From Defluviitaleaceae bacterium (GTDB lineage Bacteria > Bacillota > Clostridia > Lachnospirales > UBA5962), in NCBI GenBank assembly GCA_009787355.1, contig WRGD01000139.1, forward strand, positions 1-33,152: a DNA stretch of 33,152 nt, given 5' to 3'. Below the pieces are notes generated by a model that was not told where the DNA came from, ran no database searches, and worked only from the letters and a program-made list of their open reading frames with translations. A program made the position numbers and the translations under genes. Shown here one piece after another: positions 11,124 to 33,152 of the stretch. The stretch's first letter is position 1; every line of letters begins with the position of its first letter.

Positions 11124-11312
11124 TCCGATTTTAAGGAATTTTAAAGTCTATACATAAACTTTGGCATTTAAAATCGTTTATTTTTACAAATTATATAATT
11201 AAATTACAATTAAGTAAAGATGATTTTTCAATTATTAACATATTTATAAATTAAATCAACAAAATTCAGGTGCGAAACTCCTAACAAAAATATGCTCGCT
11301 TAAAGTTCGCAC
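11124..11312 (-). promoter_or_regulatory. CRISPR leader with inverted-repeat motif
   Basis: This AT-rich region borders the leader-proximal repeat. It contains GTGCGAA (11270-11276) and TTCGCAC (11306-11312) as a 7-bp inverted repeat 29 bp apart; with the AAGCGAGCAT between them this resembles, from memory, a motif found in other type I-C leaders. New spacers should enter at position 11123. The rest of the gap up to the mrr stop (11313-11385) is plain AT-rich DNA without a clear terminator. Confidence 0.65.
11190..11218 (-). promoter_or_regulatory. Probable pre-crRNA promoter in the leader
   Basis: On the minus strand TTTACT (11218-11213), a 17-nt spacer and the consensus TATAAT (11195-11190) point towards the array. 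Transcription would start about 60 nt before the first repeat, a usual distance for a CRISPR leader promoter. Confidence 0.6.
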
Positions 11313-11385
11313 TAAAATAAAATTTTAGAAAATAATATTTACAATAAATTTTTATTTTTAAATAATTAGTCTTTAATAAATTTAT

Positions 11386-12330: not shown

Positions 12331-12378
12331 ATTTCTCTCCAATATTTGAATTTTAGAATTTTGTGTATTAATATTTTA

Positions 12379-12675
12379 TTACAAAATAAGAGGTGCTTCT
12401 AAATCCAAAGCTTCTTTTATACCAAAATGTTCAACTTTATTTTTATAGTTATTTCCCATTTGATAAATTCTAAGGCTATCTTCGCTTGTATTCATAACAC
12501 TTTTCAGCTTAATTTTTAATTCTAACAATTGTGTATTATCTACTATACATTCAAAAACAGAATTTTGAACCCGTTGACCATAATTTTGACAAATTTTCGC
12601 TATTTTTTGCAACCTTTTTCTTCCTGTAGCAGTTATTGTACTAACGTCATAAGTAATTAGCACTAACAGTTTCAT
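12379..12675 (-). CDS. cas2: Cas2, type I-C adaptation protein
   Basis: A 98-residue protein with a ferredoxin-like fold. LVLITYDVST contains the conserved aspartate of Cas2 (residue 10), and GQRVQNSVFECIVD and GNNYKNKVEHFG are typical of type I-C Cas2. With Cas1 it integrates new spacers. The start is ATG 12675; a GTG one codon earlier is possible. The ribosome binding site is weak, because AGG lies only 2 nt from the ATG. The 5' flank contains a stray CRISPR-like repeat within 55 bp, inserted between cas1 and cas2. Confidence 0.95.
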   Translation of the reverse strand: MKLLVLITYDVSTITATGRKRLQKIAKICQNYGQRVQNSVFECIVDNTQLLELKIKLKSVMNTSEDSLRIYQMGNNYKNKVEHFGIKEALDLEAPLIL

Positions 12676-12684
12676 CACCTACTT

Positions 12685-12742
12685 TCATTACTTCCATAGT
12701 TCAATCCACGCACCACGATAAGTGCGACTCATTACTTCCATA
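12685..12742. repeat. Perfect 14-bp direct repeats flanking the solitary CRISPR repeat
   Basis: TCATTACTTCCATA occurs at 12685-12698 and again at 12729-12742, directly abutting both ends of the 30-bp CRISPR-like element. The right copy is the 3' end of cas1 (codons TGG AAG TAA on the minus strand); the left copy forms the cas2 upstream region. Removing one copy plus the element leaves cas1 stop and cas2 start 12 nt apart. The arrangement looks like an insertion with target-site duplication. Confidence 0.95.
12699..12728 (-). repeat. Solitary CRISPR-repeat-like element between cas1 and cas2
   Basis: On the plus strand this 30-bp stretch reads GTTCAATCCACGCAC then CACGATAAGTGCGAC. It differs from the array repeat only by one changed base near the handle end, one missing T, and TA in place of GG. 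In mRNA sense (minus strand) CGCAC and GTGCG can still pair into a hairpin, and the 3' part TGGATTGAAC resembles the crRNA handle. It has the same orientation as the array repeats and the cas transcript. It lies in an otherwise 53-56 bp gap and is flanked on both sides by the same 14 bp. Confidence 0.93.
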
Positions 12743-13763
12743 AAAATGGTGGATATTCATCTAAATCACCACGTAAATATCTTGCTAATAATAAAGCTTG
12801 TGCATGGGGAACAAGTCCCCATGCAATTTTTTCACCTAGATAAGGATGAGTTATTTGTTCTTGCTTTTTCTCTTGCCATGAACTTAAAAATTTTTTTCGT
12901 GCTTCATCGGTCATTAAAACAGAGCTGTTCTCTTTTTTCAAAAAATCATCTTTACCTACAATTTTTCTATTTACTAAAGATAAGACAAATCTATCTGCAA
13001 ACACTTCTCTTAATTCTTCAATTAAATCTAATGCTAAAGAAGCTCTGCCGGGTCTATCCCTGTGAAGAAATCCTACATAAGCATCCAAACCAACAGTCTC
13101 ACAAGCTGCTGATGTATCGTTAGTTAGCAGTGTATATGCAAAAGAAAGCATTGCATTCATATTATCTAAAGGAGGTCGACGAGAACGTGTGTCAAAATAA
13201 AAATCTTCTTTTTGTTGTAAAATCATATCGTCAAAAATTTTATTGTAACTATATGCTGCTTGACCTTCCAAACCTCGTAAACGTTCTAAATTTTCACATA
13301 CTTTTATTTCTAAAATTAGGCTAGAAAGATGTTTAGATATTTCTTTAAATTTCACAACGTCAATACGTAGAGGATAATCTCTTGTCATTCGTTCAAGTAC
13401 CCATTTACTATTATAAACTTTTCCGATAATAAAGTTACGTGCTATTTTAGCGGAGTGGTCTTCATCTTCCGAGATTAGATATTGTTTTTTTCTAAGTGTT
13501 ACATTGCCTTTACTTTCACCAATTACCCGAGCTAAAAAGCGACCATTCGACTTTAAAAAAACAATAGAAATATTTTGCTTAGCACAATACCCCATAAGTG
13601 CTGGGCTTGCACCTGTATAGCCAAATGTAACAATAGATTCTAAGTTGTGAAGAGGTACACGTCCTAATTTTTCATCATCTTTTAAAACGACAACATTATC
13701 ACCATCTAAGGACAAATATACGTCCGTTTGGGTTATAAATAAAGTATTTAGGAGTTTTCTAAT
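12732..13763 (-). CDS. cas1: Cas1, type I-C integrase, apparently starting at ATT
   Basis: The spacer integrase; with Cas2 and Cas4 it inserts DNA into the array. From ATT 13763 it has 343 residues, the normal I-C length, and begins (I/M)RKLLNTLFITQTDVYLSLDG, matching the usual I-C N-terminus MKKLLNTLYV. GGGGAGG (13772-13778) lies exactly 8 nt before this ATT. The first conventional start in frame is TTG 13715, which has no ribosome binding site and would remove 16 residues including conserved strand 1. Catalytic residues are E166 in RGLEGQAA, H234 in GFLHRDRPGR and D246 in LALDLIEE. It overlaps the 3' end of cas4 by 16 nt. Its last codons form one of the 14-bp direct repeats. Confidence 0.93.
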   Translation of the reverse strand: MRKLLNTLFITQTDVYLSLDGDNVVVLKDDEKLGRVPLHNLESIVTFGYTGASPALMGYCAKQNISIVFLKSNGRFLARVIGESKGNVTLRKKQYLISEDEDHSAKIARNFIIGKVYNSKWVLERMTRDYPLRIDVVKFKEISKHLSSLILEIKVCENLERLRGLEGQAAYSYNKIFDDMILQQKEDFYFDTRSRRPPLDNMNAMLSFAYTLLTNDTSAACETVGLDAYVGFLHRDRPGRASLALDLIEELREVFADRFVLSLVNRKIVGKDDFLKKENSSVLMTDEARKKFLSSWQEKKQEQITHPYLGEKIAWGLVPHAQALLLARYLRGDLDEYPPFLWK

Positions 13764-14437
13764 TGCGATAACCTCCCCTCAATGTACCTTTTTACTGTTT
13801 GCTTATTCATTAATTCAGGCAAGCAAATATCTTTTAAAGAGCAATTGTTGCAAAATTTACCTGTTTTAACTTTTGGCGTATATTTGCGTTTATACATATC
13901 GTGCATTTCTTTAGTAATATTTTTTAATTTTTCTTTCATTTCTATTGTAATAGGAACTTCTATTCGGTGTTTAATTTCATTGTAAAAAATGTAACCAGTT
14001 TTCACTTCACAAAGCAACATTTCTTCAAGGCACATTGCTTGTGCTATTAGCTGCAAAATATCTTCATTGCCTGTTTTAGGTTTACCTCTTTTGTATTCAA
14101 TGGGGTAGGCTAAATAGAGTCCGTCCATACCGTCAATTGGGACACCTTCTTTATCTCTAATAAATTCTACCACATCACAAATACCGCTAATACCAAGATA
14201 GTTAGATTTTACTGGTAATGCACGTACAATTAACTTATCACCACGTTTTTCACGTGTAAAAGGTTTGTCAACTTTTTGATGAACATATCCTCCTTCGATT
14301 GTTTTTACGTTTTCTTGCCATTGTTGTTCAATATCGATTAAAGCCCATTGACGTTTACAAAATTCAAAATGTTGAATGCCCGATAGCATGAGGTAATCTT
14401 CTTCATCATAAATCATTCTTTGTATTTTATATTCCAT
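13748..14437 (-). CDS. cas4: Cas4, RecB-like nuclease with iron-sulphur cluster
   Basis: A 229-residue protein that trims prespacers and helps choose those with the right PAM and orientation. YDEEDYLMLSGIQHF with C27, then H53, D88 in GICDVVEF, and E114-x-K116 in IEYKRGKPK form the RecB-type nuclease site. The three C-terminal cysteines C196, C199 and C205 (CNNCSLKDIC) with C27 should bind a 4Fe-4S cluster. All expected residues are present. The gene overlaps cas7 by 11 nt and cas1 by 16 nt, so translation of cas7, cas4 and cas1 is probably coupled. Confidence 0.95.
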   Translation of the reverse strand: MEYKIQRMIYDEEDYLMLSGIQHFEFCKRQWALIDIEQQWQENVKTIEGGYVHQKVDKPFTREKRGDKLIVRALPVKSNYLGISGICDVVEFIRDKEGVPIDGMDGLYLAYPIEYKRGKPKTGNEDILQLIAQAMCLEEMLLCEVKTGYIFYNEIKHRIEVPITIEMKEKLKNITKEMHDMYKRKYTPKVKTGKFCNNCSLKDICLPELMNKQTVKRYIEGRLSQLENS

Positions 14438-15248
14438 CTATCTCTTCTACATTTACACCTGTATTATCTAGTGTGTATGTACCATCTTGATTTACTTTCA
14501 AACTACGGTGTATTTTTGCAGAAGAAACAACTTTTTCGCCTTCTTTTTGTTCCCACCATATCAGTTTTAAAACTTCCATACTTCCAGAAGGTCTTGCAGA
14601 AGTTGCATCATTTTCAAAAAGTGTTCTCATCGCTTCTTTTATTTGTTTTACGTCTTCTTCTGTAAAGCCTGTTTTAGATGCTAGTTGTGGAACTATAGAA
14701 CCGTATGTTAAATATATCCCAAAATCTATGCGATGCTTCATTCCCATAGTATCGCTGCCTTTTTTATCATTTGTTGTAGTATTCATACTTTTAGTTATTT
14801 GAATGCTTGTGCTGTTTACAGGTTCTACACTAAAAGCTGATTGTATACTAAGTGGACCACGAATAGCTATAGAAGCTGATACATCGTCTACACCAGCTAA
14901 AACTTGTCCAAAAGTGCGTACATCTATCCATTCTTTGCAAGCTATTTCTGCTTTTTTTTCTGCATTTTTATTTCCTTTGTCTGCTTTTATACGTTCATTA
15001 TTATCGTATCTATCTTTTATACTTAGATATTTATCGTTTTTATAATCACTTGTTTGCATTAAAACATTACAACCCCTATCTAGCAAACGATTACGTATTT
15101 TTCGTTTTAGTGCAACATCACTTATTTCACCATATCCATCATAGTTTATTCGTGGTCTATTTCCATTAAGCGGGTCTCCATTTGGGTTAGCATTTTTTAC
15201 ACTTATTATTATTGCAAAATCTATTTTGTTTTTTAATATGTTACTCAT
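14427..15248 (-). CDS. cas7: Cas7 (Csd2), type I-C Cascade backbone
   Basis: A 273-residue RAMP protein that forms the helical backbone along the crRNA spacer. The N-terminal IDFAIIISVKNANPNGDP is the characteristic Csd2 motif, followed by GNRPR and ISDVALKRKIRNRL. WIDVRTFGQVLAG and SIAIRGPLSIQSAFS near the middle are also typical. I start at ATG 15248 because GAGGA lies 8 nt upstream; an in-frame ATG 5 codons earlier lies inside cas8c without a site. It overlaps the cas8c stop by 8 nt. Confidence 0.95.
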   Translation of the reverse strand: MSNILKNKIDFAIIISVKNANPNGDPLNGNRPRINYDGYGEISDVALKRKIRNRLLDRGCNVLMQTSDYKNDKYLSIKDRYDNNERIKADKGNKNAEKKAEIACKEWIDVRTFGQVLAGVDDVSASIAIRGPLSIQSAFSVEPVNSTSIQITKSMNTTTNDKKGSDTMGMKHRIDFGIYLTYGSIVPQLASKTGFTEEDVKQIKEAMRTLFENDATSARPSGSMEVLKLIWWEQKEGEKVVSSAKIHRSLKVNQDGTYTLDNTGVNVEEIDGI

Positions 15249-15648
15249 CAATTGTATCCTCATCTAAGTCTTTTATTTTTATGTTCTTATTATTTTTAAA
15301 TTCTATCCTTTGCAAACTATAGCTTAATAAATATTTACCTTCTAACGGTTTGTCGTTTTCAAACTCACCGTCTTCAAAAAGGCTAAGTATTTCATCTATA
15401 CCATTTTGAAGCCAATGAAGCGAATTTATACTACTTAACATTTTACGGTAAGGGTCTAATTGTCTATCTATTATTAGCCATGTTCTGTAAGGTTTAGATA
15501 CAAAAGCACTTCTATACCTTAGTGCATTTGTTTGTCCGCCTTTATCATTTCCTTTCTTATATTTTGCATAGTCTTCTAAACGTTCTGCATAGGCAAGCAA
15601 CCTGCCGTACAAATAGCTTCTGTCTGTTTTATTTTTTTCTAATTTCAA
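15241..15648 (-). CDS. cas11c: Cas11c small subunit from an internal start within cas8c
   Basis: In characterised type I-C systems the small subunit Cas11c is translated from an internal site in cas8c and binds the belly of Cascade. Here GGGGAGG (15657-15663) precedes the in-frame TTG at 15648 by 8 nt. This is an almost perfect site in the expected place, giving 135 residues that match the C-terminal helical domain of Cas8c. YLYGRLLAYAE follows within a dozen codons, as in known Cas11c. The site falls in codons for KGEE, where a strong Shine-Dalgarno is not otherwise needed. Its use is inferred, not shown. Confidence 0.75.
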   Translation of the reverse strand: MKLEKNKTDRSYLYGRLLAYAERLEDYAKYKKGNDKGGQTNALRYRSAFVSKPYRTWLIIDRQLDPYRKMLSSINSLHWLQNGIDEILSLFEDGEFENDKPLEGKYLLSYSLQRIEFKNNKNIKIKDLDEDTIDE

Positions 15649-17094
15649 ACTTATTTCCTCCCCTTTGTTTTTGTAATACATTTTTAATAATGCACATGTT
15701 ATGTTTATCGCTTTTTTATATGCCCAAGGCTCAAAAGAATATGGATTTGAAACTCTGCGTAATGCAGATGTTATATAATTTTTATCAAGTGGTTTTTCAC
15801 TAAAAATAGTAAAAAGCATCTGCTCACGCTGGCGTTTTTGTATTTTTTTAAAACTCGCATCTTTAAAATCACTAAAATCTTTTTTACTTCCAAAAACCAA
15901 ACTAAGTATATCGTCTACTCTCGGTGCAGATATATATTCCACTCTTTTTTTAGATTTTTTATCACTTTTTTTATCACTTTTTTTATCCTCAACATAAGAC
16001 TCCATATGCCAGTTACAATTCTCGTGCCAGTATATTAACTTTTTGTGATATTCATCTGTATCTAACTCTTGGTAATACGTTACACTTAGCCTCCCAGTTG
16101 TAGCTGCGTCTAATGCTATAATTGCTATTTTGCAGTTATGTTCTTTTAACTTTTCAGTGAGCTTATATCCACGCAAGGAATTATGTATACCATCTGCATA
16201 ATTTTTATTTAATAAAGTTTCCGCTGTTTCTTCGATTTCATTAAAATCTTCGCCCCATGTATCTATTTCGTTAGTTAGCTTAGACCACTCTGGAATTCTC
16301 GGACTTTGTCCTATTGCATATGTTAATATAACACCGCTATCGCATTTGTAACCATACTTTTCTACTAAATATGCAAGCATTGCATGAGATTTTTGGCTAG
16401 AATTATAACTGATTTGATTTGTTTGTTCTGGCTTTTTAAAACGCCCTTTGTAAGTATAACCGGTTGCATCATTTGCAGAAATAAGCTTTGCACCATAAGT
16501 TGAAGAATAAGAATTTATGCCCTTTGGATGACTTGTCGCAATTTTTTCTTCTATATCATTTGTGGAGACACCATTTATATAACATAACATTGATGATTTA
16601 ATAATAGATTTGTAATAATAATTATGCCATGCTTCTGCAATAGCTTTGTCTTCCCATAATTCTGTTATTGGGTCTCCTTTTATTTCAACACTAAACGCTA
16701 TAAAAGTCTTTTCATCATAATTTGTTTTTTTACTATCTAAATCAGATTGTAGTGTTTGGTTCACAATATAATTATATACCGCTTTCAGTTTCTGATTTTT
16801 ATCCTTCCATTTGTTTAAAAGTTCAAGATAAGAGTTATAACCTTTACCGCTAGGCAAAAGATATTTTGTATTTTCATGCAAAGGGTGTGGCGAAATTCCA
16901 CTCGTTCTACCTGCACTTTTTTCCGTAACTGGTATAGGTATTTTTATTTTTAATTCTTTTAACTCTATAAATTCACCTTTATCATTAAGTAGTATCTCAT
17001 AATCAACATTTTGTAGTTTATGGCTAAGCGGGGTTATATCATTTGCCACATTTTCAACCCTATCATAATTTTCAACAAGCCTATGCATCCACAC
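15241..17094 (-). CDS. cas8c: Cas8c (Csd1), type I-C large subunit
   Basis: The large subunit of the I-C Cascade, which recognises the PAM and recruits Cas3; 617 residues, a normal length. LVENYDRV near the N-terminus, GISPHPLHENTKYLLP (66-81), the GRLSVTYYQEL strand (334-344) and the C-terminal helical region with YLYGRLLAYAERLEDYA (494-510) are typical Csd1 features. Residues 370-384 are a lysine-rich linker with DKKS tandem repeats. Start GTG 17094 is supported by GGGGTG about 10 nt upstream; ATG 17088 is an alternative. It overlaps cas5c by 14 nt. An internal in-frame start for Cas11c lies at codon 483. Confidence 0.94.
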   Translation of the reverse strand: MWMHRLVENYDRVENVANDITPLSHKLQNVDYEILLNDKGEFIELKELKIKIPIPVTEKSAGRTSGISPHPLHENTKYLLPSGKGYNSYLELLNKWKDKNQKLKAVYNYIVNQTLQSDLDSKKTNYDEKTFIAFSVEIKGDPITELWEDKAIAEAWHNYYYKSIIKSSMLCYINGVSTNDIEEKIATSHPKGINSYSSTYGAKLISANDATGYTYKGRFKKPEQTNQISYNSSQKSHAMLAYLVEKYGYKCDSGVILTYAIGQSPRIPEWSKLTNEIDTWGEDFNEIEETAETLLNKNYADGIHNSLRGYKLTEKLKEHNCKIAIIALDAATTGRLSVTYYQELDTDEYHKKLIYWHENCNWHMESYVEDKKSDKKSDKKSKKRVEYISAPRVDDILSLVFGSKKDFSDFKDASFKKIQKRQREQMLFTIFSEKPLDKNYITSALRRVSNPYSFEPWAYKKAINITCALLKMYYKNKGEEISLKLEKNKTDRSYLYGRLLAYAERLEDYAKYKKGNDKGGQTNALRYRSAFVSKPYRTWLIIDRQLDPYRKMLSSINSLHWLQNGIDEILSLFEDGEFENDKPLEGKYLLSYSLQRIEFKNNKNIKIKDLDEDTIDE

Positions 17095-17815
17095 TACTAA
17101 AATTCACCCCACTTTCAAACTTTTTAAAATGATATTTTTGTCCATATTGCAAAATTACTCTTTTCATAGATTTATCTATCTCTTTTGGTTTGTCAAATAT
17201 TATTACACCATCTTTCATAACTGGTCTTGTTAATCTTATACCTAGTGATTTTATACCAGTTTCATCTGGGTAATCAAAACCATGAAACATAACACCCAAA
17301 TGCATTTCTCCATAGTTATCATAAAAACTACATCCACTTCCAAATTCACACGGTTCTACATACGCAGAACATTCGCTTGTACCAAGAAAAACATCTCTTC
17401 GACCACCTTGCTCTATACTTCGTTTTGCTATGTTGTGGTGTTTGTTCTCATTTCTATCGTATGATAACTCGGGTCTATTCTCATTCCATTCAAAATGTCC
17501 TATAACTTGGTATTCTACATCTTTTAAATATGTGTAAAAACTTAAATCTTGCCCTGAACTGTTTAGTTTTATAGTACGTATACCTTTGCTTTCTGTTTGT
17601 ATTTTTTTAATTACACGCACAGCATCTATATGCCATATAATAGTTGGTTTCCAATACACACTTTCTAATATACCTTTTAATGCTTGGTATGTAGGTACTG
17701 GGTAACTAAATTTTTCGCCACCTGGACGTGTAACAGGATCACTAAAAAGTGCATATCTACCATGTACTTTAAATTCTACACTATTCCATTTTTTATCTAT
17801 ACCATTTATATTCAT
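17081..17815 (-). CDS. cas5c: Cas5c (Cas5d), type I-C crRNA-processing endonuclease
   Basis: A 244-residue RAMP protein which in type I-C replaces Cas6: it cuts the repeat RNA below its hairpin and stays on the 5' handle. EFKVHGRYALFSDPVTRPGGEK (14-35) is the family start. Y43, K125 and H126 lie where the Bacillus halodurans catalytic tyrosine, lysine and histidine occur. GGRRDVFLGTSEC (137-149) and FHGFDYPDE are also typical. AGGAG overlaps the cas3 stop, 7 nt before the ATG. As no cas6 is present, it is the only visible enzyme to make crRNAs for both the I-C and the Cmr complexes. Confidence 0.94.
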   Translation of the reverse strand: MNINGIDKKWNSVEFKVHGRYALFSDPVTRPGGEKFSYPVPTYQALKGILESVYWKPTIIWHIDAVRVIKKIQTESKGIRTIKLNSSGQDLSFYTYLKDVEYQVIGHFEWNENRPELSYDRNENKHHNIAKRSIEQGGRRDVFLGTSECSAYVEPCEFGSGCSFYDNYGEMHLGVMFHGFDYPDETGIKSLGIRLTRPVMKDGVIIFDKPKEIDKSMKRVILQYGQKYHFKKFESGVNFSSVDA

Positions 17816-17825
17816 ACATTAACTC

Positions 17826-20114
17826 CTAAAAAACAAGCAATTCTAACTTGCCATTTGGATCAAAACCAAATTCTTCATTATAATAACTTTTTGATAATCT
17901 TTTTATGCCATTTATTTCTTTTATGTGTTCACCTAATGTTTTTAATTGGTGTGGATATATGCCTATACTATATGCACCTAGTTTTTTTATAATCCTTACT
18001 TTTTCTTTTATTTCATATTCTTTAAGTTTATCGTATTCATCTAACAAGCTTTGGCTTTCATCGTATATAATAACTATAGTCTCTTGACCTTTTTCTATAA
18101 CAAAAAATTCATCGCTCGCTGTTTTTATAGCATGCTTTAAAAAAATATGTCTTTGTTCATTGCTTTTCTTATCCCGATAAGATGTAACTCCTCTATTATT
18201 TGTTGTTAGTAAATTATATATTGTTATAGGACTTTGTTTATCAAGCGTTGTATTATAGTCCATCTTATCTTTTTGTTTATATAAATAATATTTATAATAA
18301 TCATCTATATATCCATTTTCTCTAAATACACGCTTTGTAACATCTGCACCTATTTTTATATCTGGAAGCATATCTAAATTTTCAAAATCTGGATTTATCA
18401 CATATACTTCTTTTGGTTCTCGATATTCTCCATGCCTATTACACCGCCCTGCTGCTTGGTGTATGCTATCTAATCCAGCTATTGAACGCACTACACATTC
18501 AAAAGATATATCTATTCCTGCTTCTATCAATTGTGTTGAGATACAGATAATTTTTTCTTTATTTTTTAATTTTTCACGCATATGTGCTATATTTTTCTTG
18601 CGATGACTACTACACATATTTGTACTTAGATGTATTATTTTTATATTTTCTTTTTCGCAGTGTTCTTTCAATGACAAATAAACCTCTAGTGCGGCTTTTT
18701 TTGTATTAAATATAGCAAGTAAAGAAGTATTAAACTTTTCTTTTATAAAATTAGAAACTTCGTTTATTCTGTACTCATCTTGTTTTATACAATTTTTTAT
18801 ATCTGTTCTTTTTGGCATAGTTACAGTTGTTATAGATTCTGACATTGAAAGTATAACTGGTTTATCTACTTTATCTAAATGCGGTTGCGTAGCTGTACAT
18901 AGTAAAACGGTGCTTTCACAAGATTTTACTAAAAAATTAATAAATCCATTAAATAAATGATAGCATTTAATCGGCATACTTTGTACTTCATCAAAGATAA
19001 GTACGCTATTTGACATATTGTGTAATTTACGCAAGTTCGTACCACGTGCTGAAAAACCACTTTCTAAAAACTGTACAAGCGTTGTGATAACAACCGAACT
19101 GTCCCAACGTTCTGTTTGTAGTCTGTATGCTTTCTCTTTCTGTTCTTCTGTTTTTTCATCTTCAAAAATCACATTAGAAGTATGCTCTAAAACAACATCT
19201 TCACCAAGTAATTCTTTTAATTCCATTGCTGTTTGGTCTATTATAGACAAAAATGGTATTACATATATCACTCTATCCATATTGTGTATTTTTGCGTGTT
19301 CCATAGCAAAACGTAAACTTGCTAGGGTTTTACCACCACCCGTTTCGACTTCTAGTTTGTATGTTCCTTTTGATTTTTTACTAGATTTTTTAGCGTCTTC
19401 TGATATTTGTTTTCGTATTTTTCCTATATCGTTACTATTTTCTTTTGATTTAAGATGTTCTTCAAGTTTATTTATATATAAATTCCAATTTGGTTTTGTT
19501 TCTGAATAAACTGTATTTGTAGCAAAATGGTATGCATCAAGCCTATCCGCATCAACAAGACAAGAAAAAATGTATTTTATTAAAAAAGAAACCATAAAAA
19601 TCTTTTCGTTTTTTTCAAATTTTTCTAAAAAGCACTTTAATTCTTGCTTAGCTTTTTCAATGTCAAAATTAATATTTAAATTTTTTATCTCAATTTGTTC
19701 ATTAAGTTCTTTTTCGAGCTTGTCTAAAATTACGTTTTCTCCTTGGTGGTCAATATTGTCAACAAGTGAACCATGGTGTCCTAATATAATATTTGCTATT
19801 ATCTCAGCTATACCTATGTCATTTTTAGTTAATTCGTTATAAACAAGCTTTGCTCCGTATATGCTATGACCGCCTTCATGTTTTTTAGTTTTTCCAGCTA
19901 AATAATCTTGAAAGCCAACCGTACTTTTACCAATGTCGTGATACATTGCGACTATTTTGCAAAGTTCCTCAACACCGATTTTTGCACCAAAATGTACAGC
20001 GTTTTTTTCTACATTTTCTAAATGTTCTATAAGAGGTTGCTCTCTTAATTCTTCTCTATCTGGGAGTGTGCCGTCTTTATTTTTATTAGTTCTAGCAATA
20101 TATTTTTTATTCAT
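17826..20114 (-). CDS. cas3: Cas3 helicase-nuclease (HD plus DExH)
   Basis: The effector that degrades DNA marked by Cascade; 762 residues. The N-terminal HD nuclease domain has H31, YHDIGK with H59-D60, H83 and GHHGS with H113-H114. The superfamily 2 helicase shows Walker A ETGGGKT (257-263), motif II DEVQ (375-378), SAT-like TATQ (407-410), and motif VI HQAAGRCNRHGE (552-562) with the arginine finger. A C-terminal domain follows. All catalytic residues are present. The ATG lies 7 bp after the cmr6 stop with only a weak ribosome binding site and no room for a promoter, so expression appears to depend on the cmr transcript. Confidence 0.95.
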   Translation of the reverse strand: MNKKYIARTNKNKDGTLPDREELREQPLIEHLENVEKNAVHFGAKIGVEELCKIVAMYHDIGKSTVGFQDYLAGKTKKHEGGHSIYGAKLVYNELTKNDIGIAEIIANIILGHHGSLVDNIDHQGENVILDKLEKELNEQIEIKNLNINFDIEKAKQELKCFLEKFEKNEKIFMVSFLIKYIFSCLVDADRLDAYHFATNTVYSETKPNWNLYINKLEEHLKSKENSNDIGKIRKQISEDAKKSSKKSKGTYKLEVETGGGKTLASLRFAMEHAKIHNMDRVIYVIPFLSIIDQTAMELKELLGEDVVLEHTSNVIFEDEKTEEQKEKAYRLQTERWDSSVVITTLVQFLESGFSARGTNLRKLHNMSNSVLIFDEVQSMPIKCYHLFNGFINFLVKSCESTVLLCTATQPHLDKVDKPVILSMSESITTVTMPKRTDIKNCIKQDEYRINEVSNFIKEKFNTSLLAIFNTKKAALEVYLSLKEHCEKENIKIIHLSTNMCSSHRKKNIAHMREKLKNKEKIICISTQLIEAGIDISFECVVRSIAGLDSIHQAAGRCNRHGEYREPKEVYVINPDFENLDMLPDIKIGADVTKRVFRENGYIDDYYKYYLYKQKDKMDYNTTLDKQSPITIYNLLTTNNRGVTSYRDKKSNEQRHIFLKHAIKTASDEFFVIEKGQETIVIIYDESQSLLDEYDKLKEYEIKEKVRIIKKLGAYSIGIYPHQLKTLGEHIKEINGIKRLSKSYYNEEFGFDPNGKLELLVF

Positions 20115-20121
20115 AAGTCAT

Positions 20122-21015
20122 CTAACCAGTCCCTAAGCCATAGCCATAAGCCGTTTTTGCACCAATACCATATTCATTAAAAGCATTTACAATATTTTCG
20201 TTTAATTTTTCCTTATATCTTTTCCAAAGCTCAATATCACCCCAAGCAATATAAATCTCAAACTCTGAATCCTTTACACAAGGAAAAGTTAAAATATTTA
20301 TTTTTTGGTCATCGGTAGGTTCTTCTTTATTTTGGTAATACTTTTGATAATGAGGTGTTAGCACATCGAAACATAATTCATATTTTTTTGGAAAAATATC
20401 AAAAAATATAAGTCCGCCTTGTTTTTCTTCGGTTCCAAATAGTGATTTTAATTCCTTTTTATTAGCTTCTGTTAGTTCTGTATTATTTTTATCTTTTAAA
20501 TTTTGTTTTTGTATTAAAAGATTGTGCCAATAGCTTCTTAATATTCCTTTAATTGCACTAGCAGGCAAATAAGGCGTTCCATATAGTGAGTGTAGTGTCA
20601 TCAGTAAAGTTGAATCGTAAGGGGAAGTTTCACCAATTCCAATAGCTAATTTGTCTATAGGTTTGTATTTGTAGCAAATAGGTTCACAAAAATTGCATAG
20701 CTTTGCTAATTTTTCTGTTCGTTCATTAAGTTTACGATTTAGATTTTTCACAATGTCTTCATTTATTTTAATTGGTATTTTATTATCTTTAGTAGGTATT
20801 TTGATAGACTTTAAAAGACTATCGGGTTTGTTTTTTAACTTCCTATTTTTTAACTGCATAGAATAACGATGATGTAGCAAATACATATTATCTAGTTCAA
20901 TTTTATTTTCTTTCCCTAAAAAAAATTTAGCTGAACTTTTAGGAAGATTAAATTCGATATTATTTTCTTTAGATTTAGGTTGTTTACTATGATTGTTGTT
21001 ATTTTTCTTATTCAT
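20122..21015 (-). CDS. cmr6: Cmr6, type III-B Cas7-like subunit
   Basis: A 297-residue RAMP protein that caps the Cmr backbone. Its first 40 residues are lysine- and asparagine-rich. YLPASAIKGILRSYWHN (154-170) is the conserved Cmr6/Cas7 helix, GGLIFFDIFP follows, and the glycine-rich C-terminus IGAKTAYGYGLG is diagnostic. The ATG lies within the last codons of cmr5 (8-nt overlap), and its stop is 7 bp before cas3. Length is normal. Confidence 0.92.
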   Translation of the reverse strand: MNKKNNNNHSKQPKSKENNIEFNLPKSSAKFFLGKENKIELDNMYLLHHRYSMQLKNRKLKNKPDSLLKSIKIPTKDNKIPIKINEDIVKNLNRKLNERTEKLAKLCNFCEPICYKYKPIDKLAIGIGETSPYDSTLLMTLHSLYGTPYLPASAIKGILRSYWHNLLIQKQNLKDKNNTELTEANKKELKSLFGTEEKQGGLIFFDIFPKKYELCFDVLTPHYQKYYQNKEEPTDDQKINILTFPCVKDSEFEIYIAWGDIELWKRYKEKLNENIVNAFNEYGIGAKTAYGYGLGTG

Positions 21016-21385
21016 CTTTCAACAACCCCTCTGCAAAACGTTTTACCCAAAGTAAATAAGCCATTATTTCTTTACTTACAATACGATAATCATCACGACT
21101 TAATTCAACAATTCCATCCATCAAACATTTATTTTTATCTATGAAATTTTGTTTAATTAACCATCCTTCAATTGAAAGGTACAATTTTTCATGGTGAAGT
21201 TTACATTTAGCTTGCAAAAAAGCAATAGACGCACAAAGACCATTGTTTTGTATCATTACTGGAAAACTTCGTGCTAAACTACGAAATTCTTTTTGAAGTT
21301 TTTCATTTTTTTCTTCTGAAATACGAAAAGCAAAATCATAAGCATATTTGGCACGTTCATCGTTATATTTTTTATTTACACTCAT
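21008..21385 (-). CDS. cmr5: Cmr5, type III-B small subunit (Cas11 type)
   Basis: A 125-residue, mostly helical protein that lines the Cmr complex and helps hold target RNA. NDERAKYAYDFAFRI (8-22) matches the family start ERAKFAYE. FRSLARSFPVMIQNNGLCASIAFLQAK is the characteristic Cmr5 core. I use ATG 21385, preceded by GGAGG with 9-nt spacing; a longer reading to 21445 lies inside cmr4 and gives an atypical N-terminus. It overlaps cmr4 by 14 nt and cmr6 by 8 nt, so translation is coupled. Confidence 0.93.
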   Translation of the reverse strand: MSVNKKYNDERAKYAYDFAFRISEEKNEKLQKEFRSLARSFPVMIQNNGLCASIAFLQAKCKLHHEKLYLSIEGWLIKQNFIDKNKCLMDGIVELSRDDYRIVSKEIMAYLLWVKRFAEGLLKDE

Positions 21386-22355
21386 CGCTAGTATCCTCCA
21401 AGTGAATTTTAAACAATCCTTTACCGAGGGTTGTATTACCACCAATTTGTAATAAGCCGTCTGAAATCATACCGAACATTTCTTTTTCAATACACTTAGC
21501 TGACATTCTATTATTTTCTTTATTATTTTCTTCATTATTTTTCTCTTCCGAAAAAAACAGCAAGCTATACAAAATACTTTCAGGTGGTAAATATTCTTCT
21601 GTAAAAAGTGCACCATCTTCAACAATACCCGTTTCATGATTAATTTTAATTCGTGTAACAACTTCAGTTGACTGTGTTACGAAGTATTCAAAATCTTCAT
21701 CCGAAATCATTGTTACCTTTTTTTTAAATTCATCGTTTTTGAGAGTAAGTTCATTAGGTTTGTTTGAAAGAAATTTTTCAGTAACTTCATCAATCCAAGC
21801 TTTAAATTTATCACATGGCTCGCTATCAAAAAGAATTTCTTCAAGCATAACTTTCTTCTCATTACTTCCGTTCTTCCCGTTCATAACCAAACTACAAAAA
21901 CCATTATAAGTTAATATTTTGTTTTCCAAACTTAAATTATCTAATTGTTCTACTAATTCTTCTAAACTTGGACAATCAATTTCAATCAACTTACAATCTT
22001 GTAGAAAACGCCTAACCACAGTTGGACAAATTACCCATGCAAAAATTCCTTTTGCAGACTTAACGGGAAAAAATAAAATTCTAGCGTCCGAAATTGAAAC
22101 AGCTGAAGGAGTATCTCCATTCTCCCAACTTCCAAGTATACGATTTATTTTATCTTCTTCACTTAATTTATCTTTTTTTATACTGTTAATCATTGCTTCT
22201 CTAATACTTCCCTTTAAGCTAGAAGCTTCTATTTTGGGAAAGTTTGTATGTTTTTCTCGTTGAATTGGCAAATCAATATAACTTAAATTATCGCCACTAC
22301 CTACATGTGCAGACGTAAGTGTATACAACAACATTAATTTTTTATGCTCAAACAC
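21372..22355 (-). CDS. cmr4: Cmr4, type III-B backbone and target-RNA endonuclease
   Basis: A 327-residue RAMP subunit, present several times per complex, that cuts bound target RNA every 6 nt. SAHVGSGDNLSYIDLPIQRE (15-34) is the Cmr4 hallmark; D28 should correspond to the catalytic aspartate (D26 of Pyrococcus furiosus). IEASSLKGSIREAM, DARILFFPV and the C-terminal LLQIGGNTTLGKGL also fit. The start is GTG 22355 with AGGAGGAG upstream, overlapping the cmr3 stop by 8 nt. The nuclease residue is intact, so RNA cleavage should be functional. Confidence 0.94.
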   Translation of the reverse strand: MFEHKKLMLLYTLTSAHVGSGDNLSYIDLPIQREKHTNFPKIEASSLKGSIREAMINSIKKDKLSEEDKINRILGSWENGDTPSAVSISDARILFFPVKSAKGIFAWVICPTVVRRFLQDCKLIEIDCPSLEELVEQLDNLSLENKILTYNGFCSLVMNGKNGSNEKKVMLEEILFDSEPCDKFKAWIDEVTEKFLSNKPNELTLKNDEFKKKVTMISDEDFEYFVTQSTEVVTRIKINHETGIVEDGALFTEEYLPPESILYSLLFFSEEKNNEENNKENNRMSAKCIEKEMFGMISDGLLQIGGNTTLGKGLFKIHLEDTSDECK

Positions 22356-23592
22356 TTTTAAATTTCTCCTCCTGTTCTTTATTAACTGTACCGACTAAAA
22401 CGTAACCAAAACCACGGTCGCAATAACGCAAACGGTCATATGAAACTTTTGGTCGTTTAAAACCATAATTTAAACGGTAATCACTCATACATTTTTGGTG
22501 AAATAAATGAACAGCATCTTCAAAGGTGCCTTCTAAAATTTCAAAGTAGTAAACACTACCTGCTGGAACTGCATAACGCATTTCTCTCGGTTGATATTTT
22601 TCATTCTCTTTTTCTTGACCAAAACCACCCGCTGGAACATATCTTCCGACGGTTGCTGCTATAAGTTTAACTTTTATATTTCTCTTTTTGCCATGAAATT
22701 TTCCTATCTTTGCTTCATTGTCGTCAATCCATTGTGGAAACCAGCCATTTTCAAAAATCGCTGGCGTTGCTAAATAAAGTTTAAAATACTTAGAATCACT
22801 TTCAAGTTTTGGAATATTAAGAGTTTTTTCTGACAATCGCTGTATTTCTGCAATTTTACTTTCTCCACCAAGTCTATTAAGTTTTATATTCTCAATTTCA
22901 ATGCCTTTCACTTCAACAGCAAGCTGTAAATCGGCATGTGGTCGAACCATTTCAATTTCGTACAAATTATTATCTTTTTTATAATCGTCTTTATCAAGCT
23001 CTCTTTTATCGATACTTTTAGAGTTAATTTTTATGCCAAGCTTTCTTTCTCTTGATAAATGGTTATTTAATGAAAATCCATTAATAAAACTATCTTCTCC
23101 TTTTAGGTAGCTAATCAAGTCGCCTTCTTCAATATAAATGTCTTCTAGAGTTTTCATCTTTTTTTCATTCGTATTCTCTGTAGGTAAATTCGATTTAATT
23201 AAACAATATTTAAGAGGAAAGTTTGACATTGGTCTACACATAAGCTCCATTGTTTTTAATTCATACTGTTGTTTTTCTTTAATTTCTTTTTCAGAAGTAA
23301 AATCATATGATTTGGATATAAACATATCTAACGGCTGTGGAAAGCAAAAATTATCTTTATACAAAACTCCATTGTAAGAGATTTTTAAAGCATGGTTAAT
23401 ATTTTTTTCATTACTTTTATTATTTTCATATTCAGATTTGCAATTTTTTGAAACAAAAGGCTTAAACATTCCTGAGTAAGTGCTTGGAATAGGAGGGAAA
23501 GCACTGCCAAGCAAATGAGTTTCTCCCTCTGCTTCAAAAGGTGTACCGAGGCGAAAGAACAATTGGTCAATTGCTTTAATCTTATAAATCAA
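22348..23592 (-). CDS. cmr3: Cmr3, type III-B Cas5-like subunit
   Basis: A 414-residue RAMP protein that holds the 5' tag of the crRNA next to Cas10. KAIDQLFFRLGTPFEAEGET (6-25) and GSAFPPIPSTYSGMF (29-43) are the conserved N-terminal motif. The glycine-rich region PAGGFGQE, AVPAGSVYYFEIL and NYGFKRPKVSYDR follow near the C-terminus. It starts at TTG 23592, whose bases overlap the Cas10 stop (TTGA), behind AAAGGAGG with 10-nt spacing. It ends overlapping cmr4. Confidence 0.92.
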   Translation of the reverse strand: MIYKIKAIDQLFFRLGTPFEAEGETHLLGSAFPPIPSTYSGMFKPFVSKNCKSEYENNKSNEKNINHALKISYNGVLYKDNFCFPQPLDMFISKSYDFTSEKEIKEKQQYELKTMELMCRPMSNFPLKYCLIKSNLPTENTNEKKMKTLEDIYIEEGDLISYLKGEDSFINGFSLNNHLSRERKLGIKINSKSIDKRELDKDDYKKDNNLYEIEMVRPHADLQLAVEVKGIEIENIKLNRLGGESKIAEIQRLSEKTLNIPKLESDSKYFKLYLATPAIFENGWFPQWIDDNEAKIGKFHGKKRNIKVKLIAATVGRYVPAGGFGQEKENEKYQPREMRYAVPAGSVYYFEILEGTFEDAVHLFHQKCMSDYRLNYGFKRPKVSYDRLRYCDRGFGYVLVGTVNKEQEEKFKSV

Positions 23593-25280
23593 TTTTGCAT
23601 TACCTCCTTTGATAAAAACCCAACGATATTAAGCATATTAAGAAAATTTTCATGATTTTTATTTTCATACAAAACATTTAAATGTTTTAAAACTTCATCG
23701 GATTTACATATTCCCTTACTTTGAAGAGATTGTTCTATAAGCGTAGTAGCTATTTCTTCTTCTATGTCAAAAGACAATTTGTTTAATGTTTGACTAATAT
23801 CATAAATAAAGGTTTTTGAATTCGTATCCTCTTTGAATAGATTAATCAAACATTTGAGAGATTCAAGCTTCTCATATTCAGCTTCAAAAGAATAAGTAAT
23901 ATGTCGGATTTCAGAACCTCGCTTCATTAAAGAAACTGAAAAAGAATTTTTGTTATTAGCTTCTTTGGCAAGTTTTTCAGCTTTATTTGCTTGGTACATT
24001 ACATCTTTTAAAGGTTGCATCAAATGGGCAATGACAATCCCAGAGGAAAAAGTAAATGGTTCTACACACGGCATTTTTAGCATTTCACCAAATTTAAAAT
24101 GAAGTTCTTGCAATGTTTCCCAAAGTTCTTCCAGGGGCAAAATGGCTAAAATATCTTCACCACCAGCATAAATACAAATACCGCCGACTTTTTTAATCAT
24201 TTCTTCGGCACAAATAGCAAAATTGCATATTTTTTTGCTTAATTTTTTATGTTCGCTTTTTGATTTTAATTCAAGGTATTTAGTTCCCATGTAATCGCCA
24301 TCAAATTTCAGCAACGCATAGTATTGTTGAAGTTTAAATGATTTATTTTTCAAGTTTTCAACTAGCTTTTCAGCTATCTCAAATATTTCTAATGAATATT
24401 CATCGTTATTTTTGGGAAGCTTATTATATACGTCATAAATTGCATTGACTAACTGGGTTTGAATATTCCTAACTTCACAAGTTATATTTTCTTTATACCA
24501 TTTGGCACCTAATAAGTTATTATTAAAATCTAAAGTTTTCTTAAGTACAATTTCTCGTATAGAACGAACTTCATTATCACCGTAAAGTCTTTTAAGCATA
24601 GCAACAGCAGACAATGCTTCATTTTGTTTAACTTTATAATTCAGGCTTTCGACATTTGAAATATCAATAATTTCATTAGGGTTCGTGTTATGTGGATAGT
24701 TACATTTTTCATTTTTCTTAACAAATATTGCATTGTATTCTGGGTGTAAACTACACTTTCTACCCCACGGCTCATTTAACTGTTTAAATTGTCTTATACT
24801 TTTCACTGAATGTAAATTATGAAATATATCTTGATAAGCTTCGTTGTATTCTTCATCACAATTATAAGGTTGAAATAGCCAGTAAAATTCAAGAAAATTT
24901 TTAAGTTGATTTTCAGCTTTTTTTAAATCACTTTCTGAAATATTAAAGTTTTTAAATTTTGTAAATTCTTTCTTATATATTTCCTCAAAATTCTTTTTTA
25001 CATGGCAACTTAAATCTTCTGCTAACTTTTTATGTTGCTCTTCACAATAGTTTTCTATATTTGCAAGTAAGCGATTTGGCAAACTGTCAAACTCTTTAGA
25101 AGGTAAAGGAAAAATCACTTCTATGTTTTTATTTTCGCTTTTTTCTTCAAGAAATTCAACAGCACACTTTGTTAACTTCGATAACAAACGACTACCAGCG
25201 TATAAGTCATTCATCTTACGACCATTTTCTACAAATGATTTTACTGGACCTATTGTAAATGCAAATAATGCTTTCCCCAT
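23589..25280 (-). CDS. cas10: Cas10 (Cmr2), type III-B large subunit, without HD domain and with GGED
   Basis: The large subunit, which in many type III systems makes cyclic oligoadenylate once target RNA binds. At 563 residues it is shorter than HD-containing Cmr2 (about 870 in Pyrococcus). It begins MGKALFAFTIGPVKSFV, typical of Cmr2 palm 1, so the N-terminal HD nuclease is absent. The second palm carries KFDGDYMG (325-332) with acidic metal ligands, and YAGGEDILAILPL (371-383), where GGED replaces the usual GGDD. Acidic character is kept, as in GGDEF/GGEEF cyclases, so synthesis is possible but unproven. No CARF-domain effector is seen in the window. Its ATG overlaps the cmr1 stop (TAATG) and its end overlaps cmr3. 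Confidence 0.93.
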   Translation of the reverse strand: MGKALFAFTIGPVKSFVENGRKMNDLYAGSRLLSKLTKCAVEFLEEKSENKNIEVIFPLPSKEFDSLPNRLLANIENYCEEQHKKLAEDLSCHVKKNFEEIYKKEFTKFKNFNISESDLKKAENQLKNFLEFYWLFQPYNCDEEYNEAYQDIFHNLHSVKSIRQFKQLNEPWGRKCSLHPEYNAIFVKKNEKCNYPHNTNPNEIIDISNVESLNYKVKQNEALSAVAMLKRLYGDNEVRSIREIVLKKTLDFNNNLLGAKWYKENITCEVRNIQTQLVNAIYDVYNKLPKNNDEYSLEIFEIAEKLVENLKNKSFKLQQYYALLKFDGDYMGTKYLELKSKSEHKKLSKKICNFAICAEEMIKKVGGICIYAGGEDILAILPLEELWETLQELHFKFGEMLKMPCVEPFTFSSGIVIAHLMQPLKDVMYQANKAEKLAKEANNKNSFSVSLMKRGSEIRHITYSFEAEYEKLESLKCLINLFKEDTNSKTFIYDISQTLNKLSFDIEEEIATTLIEQSLQSKGICKSDEVLKHLNVLYENKNHENFLNMLNIVGFLSKEVMQN

Positions 25281-26224
25281 TAATTGCTCACTCCTTTGCG
25301 TTCAACTTTATCAACAAAAGTTTCCCATTCTTTTTTAGTTTTTTGTTTATCCAAGACTTCTTTATTAGCAACCGCTTTCACACAAGTATAAATCGGCAAA
25401 TAGCCTTCTTTTGTATGTGCAAGACCTACAATAATTGACGAAGCAAATTTATTATTTGAAAGTGCTGAGCCAGTTGCATAATATGCTTTTCCATCAATTC
25501 GATGCGGCTTTAATTCTGATTTAATCTCATGAGAAGCAGTGTCAACTGACTTCAAAAAACTTTTCCAGCTATTTTTTTCAATATCTCCAAATAAAATTTT
25601 CTTAATAACTGGTCGTTTAACATTTGAGGAAACATTCTTTGAAACAATCATATTATCACATTTATAAAACTCTTTTGAGTTTTCATTATTTTGCTCTTTA
25701 TAAATGTTATTCAACTTACTTAGAATACTATTTTTTACTTCACAGCTAGTAGGTTGATTTTCATTTAAAATCATAATTCTTCCACGCCCTTTACGACTTC
25801 TTTGACCAAGCCCGATAAGTAAAAATGATAACTCTATCAAATCTATGTACCAATTTAATTCTTTTAGCGAATTCTTTCTAGTTCTTACTAGAAGGCTAAA
25901 GTTTTCATTTGGAAATATACAATTTTTAGAATTGTTTTTCCCATTTTTTTTATTATCATGGAGAAGAAATTCACATGAGCTAGTATTGATTTTAGAAGAT
26001 AAAACGGATAGTCTAACAGGTGAAGCTATGCTTTCAGCGTTCCCAAAGATTGCATTTTCAAGTTCTAATAAATCTTTAGTATCTAGTATGGGCTGAGCAA
26101 TACGAAACATGTAACGCATCATTCCTTTTATAGATGAAGCACGAATTTCAGGATGTTTAGCACTAATACCATAAGAAAATATTGGAGTAATAACTTTATA
26201 TTTAACATTTTTTGATTCCATCAT
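25280..26224 (-). CDS. cmr1: Cmr1, type III-B Cas7-like subunit
   Basis: A 314-residue RAMP protein at the 3' end of the crRNA in the Cmr complex. KYKVITPIFSYGI (8-20), IRASSIKGMMRYMFRI (27-42) and FGNAESIASPVRL (60-72) are typical. The glycine-rich LIGLGQRSRKGRGRI (136-150) is the family signature. This is the first intact gene of the cmr-cas operon. Its ribosome binding site AAGGAT overlaps the stop of the broken gene upstream and lies rather far (about 12 nt) from the ATG pair. Confidence 0.93.
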   Translation of the reverse strand: MMESKNVKYKVITPIFSYGISAKHPEIRASSIKGMMRYMFRIAQPILDTKDLLELENAIFGNAESIASPVRLSVLSSKINTSSCEFLLHDNKKNGKNNSKNCIFPNENFSLLVRTRKNSLKELNWYIDLIELSFLLIGLGQRSRKGRGRIMILNENQPTSCEVKNSILSKLNNIYKEQNNENSKEFYKCDNMIVSKNVSSNVKRPVIKKILFGDIEKNSWKSFLKSVDTASHEIKSELKPHRIDGKAYYATGSALSNNKFASSIIVGLAHTKEGYLPIYTCVKAVANKEVLDKQKTKKEWETFVDKVERKGVSN

Positions 26225-30995: not shown

Positions 30996-32822
30996 CTATT
31001 CAACCGTTACAGACTTTGCCAAATTTCTTGGCATATCTATATCCGAACCAAGCTCTCTAGAGATATAATAAGAAAAAAGCTGCATATATATAGCTGTTAA
31101 GCTGGGTGTAAAATAATCATTTATCTTAGGTATGATTAACAAATTGCTTTTATCTACATCAACATTTATTTCTTTAATGTAAGCTTCTTCATTTGTTATT
31201 ATTATAGATTCTGCACCTCTTGCTTTTACTTCTTGAAGATTGCTCATTGTTTTTTCAAATATATGTTTTTGTGTTATACAAGATATAACAAGTGTTCTAT
31301 CTTCTATTAATGATATCGTACCATGTTTTAATTCTCCTGCTGCATATGCTTCACTGTGTATATATGATATTTCTTTTAATTTTAAAGAACCCTCCAAAAC
31401 AGCAGCATAATCTAGTCCACGACCTATAAAAAATATACTCTTATTATTTTTGTATTTTTTCGATAGTTCCTTTATTTGATTTTCACTAATTTTTAATATG
31501 TTTTCTATTTTTTCTGGTATAGTCAATATTTCTCCAACTAGTAATTTTTCTGTTTCTTTTGTTATTTTCTTTCTTTGAAATGCAAATTTTATCCCTAACA
31601 AATATAGTAAAGATATTTGTGCAGAGTATGCCTTTGTTGTTGCAACAGCTATTTCAGGACCAGCCCATGTAAATAAATTCAAATCACTTTCTCTTGCTAT
31701 AGAACTACCTAGAACATTTACTATCGAAAGTGTTTTTACACCATTAGTTTTTCCGTGTCTTAGAGCTGCTAATGTATCAGCAGTTTCTCCAGACTGACTT
31801 ATTACTAATATCAAATCATTTTCTTCTAAAATTGGATTTTGATATCTAAACTCAGATGCCAAATATACTTCTGTAGGTATTCTTGCTAAAGATTCAACTA
31901 TATTTTTAAAAACAATACCAGCATGTGCTGCACTACCACAGGCAACTACATGGATTTTGTTTATTTCTTTTGCATCTATATCTATTTTTAAATCTATTTC
32001 ATCGTTTATAACTCTTGGATTTATTGTATTTCTTATTGCTGTTGGTTGCTCATATATTTCTTTTAACATAAAATGGTCAAAACCATTTTTTTCTGCTGCA
32101 GAAACATCAAAATCTACTACGTATATATCTTTTTTTATTTCATTTTTATTTTTATCAAAAATTTGTATATTATCTTTTTTTACTATGCCTATTTCTTCTT
32201 CTTCTAAAATATAATAATTTTTGGTATATTCTAAAGTTGCAGATATATCTGAAGAAATAAAATTTTCATTTGTTCCGATTCCGATAACAAGTGGACTTTG
32301 CTTTTTTACAGTATATATTGTATTTTCATTTTCAAAAAGTATCCCTAATGAAAAAGAACCCTTTCCTTCTTTTAAAAATTTAGAAATGGATTCTAATAAA
32401 TCTTTTGTTTTTTCATATTGATATTCAATAAAATTTGATATAACTTCTGTATCTGTATCAGATAAAAAATTATAACCTTCTTTTTGCAAGTTATTTTTTA
32501 TTTCTTTATAATTTTCCAAAATTCCATTATGGACAATTGTAAAAAGACCATTATTGCTAGTATGAGGGTGGGAGTTTATATCACTAGGTTCTCCATGCGT
32601 TGCCCACCTTGTATGTGCTATACCTAAATTTCCATTTAAATTTTCTTTTTTTAGTTTTTCTTCAAGATTTATTATTTTCCCTTTTGCTTTAACAATTTTC
32701 AATTTTTTATTTAAAATAGCTATGCCAGAAGAATCGTATCCCCTGTATTCCAATCTTTTTAAAGATTTTATTAAAATATGTGTAGCTCCTTTATTTCCTA
32801 TATATCCAACTATACCACACAT
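30996..32822 (-). CDS. glmS: Glutamine-fructose-6-phosphate aminotransferase
   Basis: Makes glucosamine-6-phosphate for cell wall synthesis from fructose-6-phosphate and glutamine. The 608-residue protein has the N-terminal glutaminase domain, in which C2 is the nucleophile (MCGIVGYIG) and YRGYDSSGIA and HTRWATHG follow. It then has two SIS sugar-binding domains (about 285-420 and 455-595) with SQSGETADTLAAL, and the C-terminal DMPRNLAKSVTVE. Length and motifs are normal. AAAAGGGGG precedes the ATG. I see no glmS ribozyme core in the 5' region, which is common in Bacillus but not in all clostridia. Confidence 0.96.
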   Translation of the reverse strand: MCGIVGYIGNKGATHILIKSLKRLEYRGYDSSGIAILNKKLKIVKAKGKIINLEEKLKKENLNGNLGIAHTRWATHGEPSDINSHPHTSNNGLFTIVHNGILENYKEIKNNLQKEGYNFLSDTDTEVISNFIEYQYEKTKDLLESISKFLKEGKGSFSLGILFENENTIYTVKKQSPLVIGIGTNENFISSDISATLEYTKNYYILEEEEIGIVKKDNIQIFDKNKNEIKKDIYVVDFDVSAAEKNGFDHFMLKEIYEQPTAIRNTINPRVINDEIDLKIDIDAKEINKIHVVACGSAAHAGIVFKNIVESLARIPTEVYLASEFRYQNPILEENDLILVISQSGETADTLAALRHGKTNGVKTLSIVNVLGSSIARESDLNLFTWAGPEIAVATTKAYSAQISLLYLLGIKFAFQRKKITKETEKLLVGEILTIPEKIENILKISENQIKELSKKYKNNKSIFFIGRGLDYAAVLEGSLKLKEISYIHSEAYAAGELKHGTISLIEDRTLVISCITQKHIFEKTMSNLQEVKARGAESIIITNEEAYIKEINVDVDKSNLLIIPKINDYFTPSLTAIYMQLFSYYISRELGSDIDMPRNLAKSVTVE

Positions 32823-32882
32823 AAAATTCCCCCTTTTATTGCAAAATTGAATAGTACCAATTTATTAAATTTACTATAATTA

Positions 32883-32911
32883 AGTATAGCATAGTTTATG
32901 CGTTTTTTAAA
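32883..32911 (-). promoter_or_regulatory. Possible glmS promoter with a small palindrome
   Basis: On the minus strand TTTAAA (32911-32906), 17 nt, then TATACT (32888-32883). The palindrome GCATA-GTT-TATGC (32889-32901) lies between the boxes. The -35 is poor, so this is tentative. The 32823-33013 gap holds nothing else clear. Confidence 0.4.
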
Positions 32912-33013
32912 CAAAAGTAGATTATTGATACCAAAAATTATCTCTATAAAAATTTTATTATTAAAAAAATTGGAACATAACAAGATATTTTGTAAAAAAA
33001 ATAAAAAAAAGTA

Positions 33014-33042
33014 TTGACTTCCGAAATGAACTAATGTATAAT
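33014..33042 (+). promoter_or_regulatory. Near-consensus plus-strand promoter before the hexamer repeat
   Basis: TTGACT (33014-33019), 17 nt, TATAAT (33037-33042). Transcription would begin near 33049 and run straight into the tandem repeat. The gene it serves lies beyond the right edge. Confidence 0.75.
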
Positions 33043-33056
33043 ATTTTCAATAAGTT

Positions 33057-33152
33057 ATCCATATCCATATCCATATCCATATCCATATCCATATCCATAT
33101 CCATATCCATATCCATATCCATATCCATATCCATATCCATATCCATATCCAT
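33057..33152. repeat. Hexanucleotide tandem repeat, at least 16 perfect ATCCAT units
   Basis: ATCCAT is repeated 16 times without error from 33057 to the last base and continues outside the window. On the plus strand no frame has a start or stop codon inside the repeat (frames read IH, SI or PY), so it is either an untranslated leader or part of a coding repeat begun by an unusual start. A minus-strand MD-repeat frame exists but looks accidental. Such perfect short repeats vary in length by slippage. Confidence 0.95.

Follow-up and report, generated by a model that had tools for sequence, protein, structure and literature searches.

The window analysed here, 33,152 nucleotides long, is an entire contig (C139), and its last position, 33152, lies inside a perfect tandem array of the hexamer ATCCAT. 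The locus raises the question of what gene this array leads into and whether the number of its units could matter to that gene. The array occupies positions 33056-33152 of the plus strand (97 bp, period 6, 16.2 copies, 100% matches, with the unit read as TATCCA or ATCCAT). Directed into it on the same strand is a sigma-70-type promoter (33014-33042) with TTGACT at 33014-33019, a 17-nt spacer and TATAAT at 33037-33042, matching the consensus at 11 of 12 positions and leaving a gap of 13 nt between the end of the -10 box and the start of the array. This promoter is unlikely to stand there by chance because the genome has matches of at least 11/12 at a background density of one in 13,657 strand-bp. 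From the position of the -10 box, transcription is predicted to begin at about 33049, with AATAAGT (33049-33055, plus strand) as the initial leader bases in front of the array. The original observation of a perfect array close behind a promoter is borne out.

The array does not lead into its visible neighbour, a divergent glmS-like gene with glutamine amidotransferase and SIS domains (30996-32822, minus strand) that starts 233 bp away. Upstream of this gene (32700-33152), neither a glmS ribozyme nor any other convincing Rfam leader was matched, and such a leader was rejected as an explanation. Elsewhere in the window, 9630-26224 holds CRISPR-like arrays of direct repeats (ATTTCAATCCACGCACTCACGAGGAGTGCGAC) and, behind them, an extended series of minus-strand genes; by their translations these include cas1/cas2/cas4-like genes, a type I-C set and another set that resembles type III.

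As the contig ends within the array, the 16 units are merely the part that the assembler retained. The genome is a metagenome-assembled genome of 152 contigs and 2.25 Mb; the contigs seen range down to 2.5 kb, consistent with a metagenome bin. The array resumes on the minus strand at one end of contig C81 (L009:11307-11211) with the same 97 bp, 16.2 copies and 100% identity. Only these two ATCCAT array edges occur in the genome, one left and one right, so both bound one array. A length of exactly 97 bp is common to many contig ends in the bin, including those at ordinary dispersed repeats, and 97 is therefore the k-mer of the assembler. When a k=97 graph was simulated, a 6-bp array broke at 103 bp or more and always left roughly k bases on either contig. 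An internal 15-mer array of 110 bp, just short of its threshold of 112, came through assembly intact. The true array thus measures at least 103 bp (at least 17 units) and could be far longer. A false array, or a false join between C139 and C81, is very improbable: both contigs do terminate within the array and the genome is a MAG, but the simulation reproduces both the break and the near-constant length, 97-bp ends also occur at dispersed repeats, and there is a single edge on each side.

Reading across the join locates the gene, which had been placed just outside the window. Outward from the array, C81 carries 172 nt, the motif AAGGAGG and a 20-codon precursor ORF (MTNVKVRKLENLEATWWIIV), then a 15-pair terminator-like hairpin and genes for a ThiF-family protein, a YydH/LiaK-like membrane protein, an ABC ATPase and permease, HlyD and MacB-like proteins. 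The ThiF/E1-like enzyme matches PF00899 (E 4.6e-51), and the nearest solved relatives of its profile are MccB (E 8e-43) and PaaA (E 2e-32). Its N-terminus, where a peptide-recognition (RRE) domain might lie, is a conserved region of about 115 aa with no Pfam match, which the PaaA profile match spans. The gene after ThiF scores 39 bits, below the cut-off, with the YydH/LiaK epipeptide protease model NF058609. The best explanation of the ATCCAT array is that it forms the untranslated 5' leader of this putative ThiF/E1-type RiPP operon.

The alternative that the array is translated, as (Ser-Ile)n within a short open frame, is the least probable reading considered. A frame MYNIFNKL(SI)n...WSTT* is indeed open across C139 and C81, but its ATG (33034) falls within the promoter, ahead of the predicted start and without a ribosome-binding site. 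There is no ATG, GTG or TTG on the plus strand between the -10 box and the array end, and a translated dipeptide is therefore unlikely; the earlier suggestion that slippage might lengthen a dipeptide repeat is not supported. Nor is a switch in leader structure evident: complementarity between the array and the downstream leader is at chance level (P 0.43-0.59), so that RNA pairing of this kind was rejected, and the predicted accessibility of the ribosome-binding site, 0.43 with 2 units, drifts only to 0.31 with 48.

The operon itself has relatives. ThiF genes 63% and 52% identical to that of C81 occur on a Niallia taxi megaplasmid and in Streptococcus sp. 121, with homologous precursors (MKKVTVRRATKVEATTWWIII and MRQAKVREPIQAGDVLWVVF, respectively), so that homologous ORFs of 20-21 aa stand at the matching position in three genera. 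Both of these precursors have VR near the start, Trp at -4 and the ThiF gene next to them, and neither locus has a tandem array upstream. Together they make up a family, spread over three genera, of short precursors containing Trp, and its ThiF enzyme looks uncharacterised. At plasmid ThiF loci of Sporosarcina (L059:3862-3921) and Macrococcus bovicus (L060:3873-3935), other short ORFs occupy the precursor position (MKIRKLSNKQVSKTAVEPR and MSLKMETIKNKAALLGGVPG) and are likely further precursor families.

Judged from its genes, the C81 operon has its nearest characterised chemistry in the ind cluster of S. pneumoniae, in which the IndA core EDTTNWYFI, with Trp at -4, acquires an indolylamide ring between Trp N1 and the C-terminus (PMC12150305). 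Both have a ThiF-like enzyme beside a short precursor, Trp at -4 with a hydrophobic C-terminus (TWWIIV in the C81 precursor), and a Gln/Lys pair of the ATP site spaced 12 residues apart (Q169/K181 versus Q167/K179). The ind protease IndP is of the M16 type, whereas C81 has a YydH/LiaK-like, membrane-bound one, and because of this difference we do not claim membership of ind. Microcin C and pantocin, whose enzymes MccB and PaaA are the best solved relatives, differ in having precursors unlike that of C81 in sequence and length.

The ATCCAT array is one of many in this genome. A first survey found 23 of 147 contig ends (10 of them masked) to be perfect arrays, their units 4-41 bp long, and later samples of 40 and 20 ends added 6 and 2, respectively, in which the array stands at the very end, a 33-base T run being left out of the count. 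About 30 sampled contig ends are thus perfect arrays, and their units differ. Arrays were seen at none of 74 contig ends in five relatives, by which a general assembly artefact and an order-wide trait were both rejected. (ATCCAT)5 occurs in no other genome among 391 of the class; 13 viral stretches have at least five ATCCAT units. A phage origin was rejected, the 15-mer array described below not being found in viral contigs.

The promoter layout recurs as well. At 10 of the 27 edges tested, a promoter matching at 11/12 or better is directed into the array with its -10 end no more than 25 bp away. Random intergenic positions show this in 0.73% of cases, or 0.2 expected of 27, giving P 3e-15, a value somewhat optimistic because the 15-mer and 10-mer loci were counted separately though their promoters are related. 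Nine of the array edges have no visible mate, the promoter side being out of sight. Of the internal arrays, that on C84 has a 12/12 promoter 14 nt away and that on C151 another at 12 nt; the one on C35 has a 10/12 match and the one on C86 none. On C75 (L170:10093-10169) a 12/12 promoter points into a contig-terminal poly-A tract of at least 26, possibly a single-base version of the layout. In the set, arrays begin 3-23 nt behind the -10 box and are followed by the ribosome-binding site of a gene, often of a RiPP or bacteriocin locus.

Some units are shared. An identical 15-mer is found at three promoter-bearing and two downstream ends, and an identical 10-mer at two of each, the downstream ends of the latter being C46 and C103, either of which may pair with either promoter end. 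Such sharing, together with the related promoter sequences of the loci concerned, is what favours arrays of operator or RNA-binding sites, in which each unit would be bound by a regulator, the array would act as a multi-site switch and a common unit would mark a regulon. We regard this as unlikely: at most loci the units are private and unrelated, lengths of 5-15 are a misfit for a single protein, and recent duplications could account for the common units.

The genes behind the arrays include several of the RiPP and bacteriocin type. LanKC synthetases follow arrays on C46 (724 bits) and C68 (673 bits, cut-off 575), the latter with three class-III-like precursors, and a third follows a short array on C151, which turned up in a LanKC search made after the pattern was suspected. 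ThiF loci follow arrays on C81 and C104, on the latter behind an RNPP-type regulator. The C104 ThiF locus (L030:8608-8660) shows no obvious long precursor; ahead of the ThiF gene there is only a 7-codon ORF, MNKYKTF, with a TTG start and a ribosome-binding site, reminiscent of the 7-residue precursors of microcin C. Further arrays lead into genes for immunity and export of the lactococcin-972 type (C45, scores below cut-offs), two radical-SAM genes accompanied by a 30-aa ORF (C92), a 40-aa ORF followed by carbamoyltransferase genes (C84) and a RiPP-like precursor of 57 aa (C149). The last came from an end sample drawn after the pattern was noticed, in which one of two new array edges led to such a precursor. 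Precursors at array loci, those of C68 and C149 included, were assigned by reading the sequence and not by profile hits. Seven LanKC and ThiF-RiPP loci were detected genome-wide, and the layout is present at 5 of them (P ~5e-7, on an assumed background of 3%, which is an estimate). The two loci without arrays are on C124 and C138; the latter, a third ThiF locus (L031:323-394, 474-1556), has a candidate precursor (MKLTPVKKAVVKKMDFSMRSHDH) and an MFS-like gene. Ordinary genes also lie behind arrays, namely an M29 peptidase, DegT, an ECF-S-like protein, MFS, MCP and uvrB, with DegT, ECF-S and uvrB named from translations.

We propose, at somewhat less than even confidence, that these loci form a genome-wide set of strong-promoter leaders containing an array, tuned by slippage and often placed before RiPP or bacteriocin loci. 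At the ATCCAT locus the anatomy is that of an array lying between an 11/12 promoter and a ribosome-binding site, where its length could affect expression. Since it sits between the start site and the ribosome-binding site, a change in unit number changes leader length, and the arrangement fits one in which slippage could resize the leader without touching promoter, ribosome-binding site or protein. Arrays would gain and lose units by replication slippage, and fast turnover of array length, as originally supposed, is plausible. Through leader length, unit number would then tune expression gradually rather than switch it on or off, and tuning of this kind is the likeliest outcome should the arrays act at all. 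The layout before bacteriocin-like genes suggests a way to vary output from cell to cell: each peptide operon would vary independently, amounting to bet-hedging of bacteriocin or signal production. The stronger form, a dedicated leader class in which a strong promoter and a hypermutable array anchored at the start site vary many RiPP or bacteriocin operons locus by locus, we put forward tentatively. The pattern was seen in one genome, a MAG and the sole representative of its genus among those searched.

The main rival is neutral growth beside strong promoters, a real though lesser possibility, in which slippage, perhaps via transcription initiation or R-loops, grows arrays past start sites because long inserts between promoter and ribosome-binding site are tolerated, and no role is selected. 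The differing units from locus to locus agree with this, as do the arrays that lead into ordinary genes and the folding predictions, in which unit number has little effect on the ribosome-binding site. The latter two points also tell against tuning, as does the lack of arrays at the LanKC/ThiF loci on C124 and C138. A heptamer array in frame within a PKS gene has no promoter, with both sides in hand, and also favours neutral growth. It lies at the start of a ketosynthase-like gene (L041:6888-12449) as an open frame (PRTTNHE)n; the mate contig (L076, right end) stops beside what reads as a phosphopantetheinyl transferase-like gene. Neutral growth accounts less well for the over-representation of the layout at LanKC/ThiF loci and for the lack of arrays in the sampled relatives. 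The genome has mutS and mutL, likewise present in nearly all relatives, so a simple mutator explanation, with mismatch repair loss as the cause, does not apply. Selection for unstructured leaders was also rejected: little structure is predicted for most units, but this is not general, given the strong structure of TAGCT and ATGGCA and an ATCCAT hexamer slightly more structured than most shuffles.

Two known repeat systems invite comparison. Simple-sequence contingency loci, such as the TAAA repeats of Neisseria nadA and the poly-G spacer of porA (PMC3899988), are likewise perfect short-unit arrays at promoters, there of variable genes. Their arrays occupy the promoter or the stretch upstream of it; in the present genome units of 5-15 bp stand just past the predicted start site, often before RiPP/bacteriocin operons. 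Intergenic TAACTGA heptamer repeats of Beggiatoaceae, Cyanobacteria and Bacteroidetes, with up to 43 copies in some species (PMC4679880), are also perfect arrays spread across a genome, and an action at the RNA level has been proposed for them. They use a single unit genome-wide, near start codons in the main species, while the present arrays have many units and are promoter-anchored, and TAACTGA is not among the array units seen in this genome. A literature search on repeats controlling bacteriocins yielded no direct precedent.

Repeat-driven variation is mainly known from surface structures of pathogens. Short-read assemblies break right at arrays of the present kind, which would routinely escape notice for that reason; the arrays also offer a simple test system for the effect of long transcribed repeats on bacterial expression. 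If the proposed role is correct, bacteriocin output itself would be bet-hedged in this organism, through arrays anchored at the start sites of many peptide-antibiotic operons.
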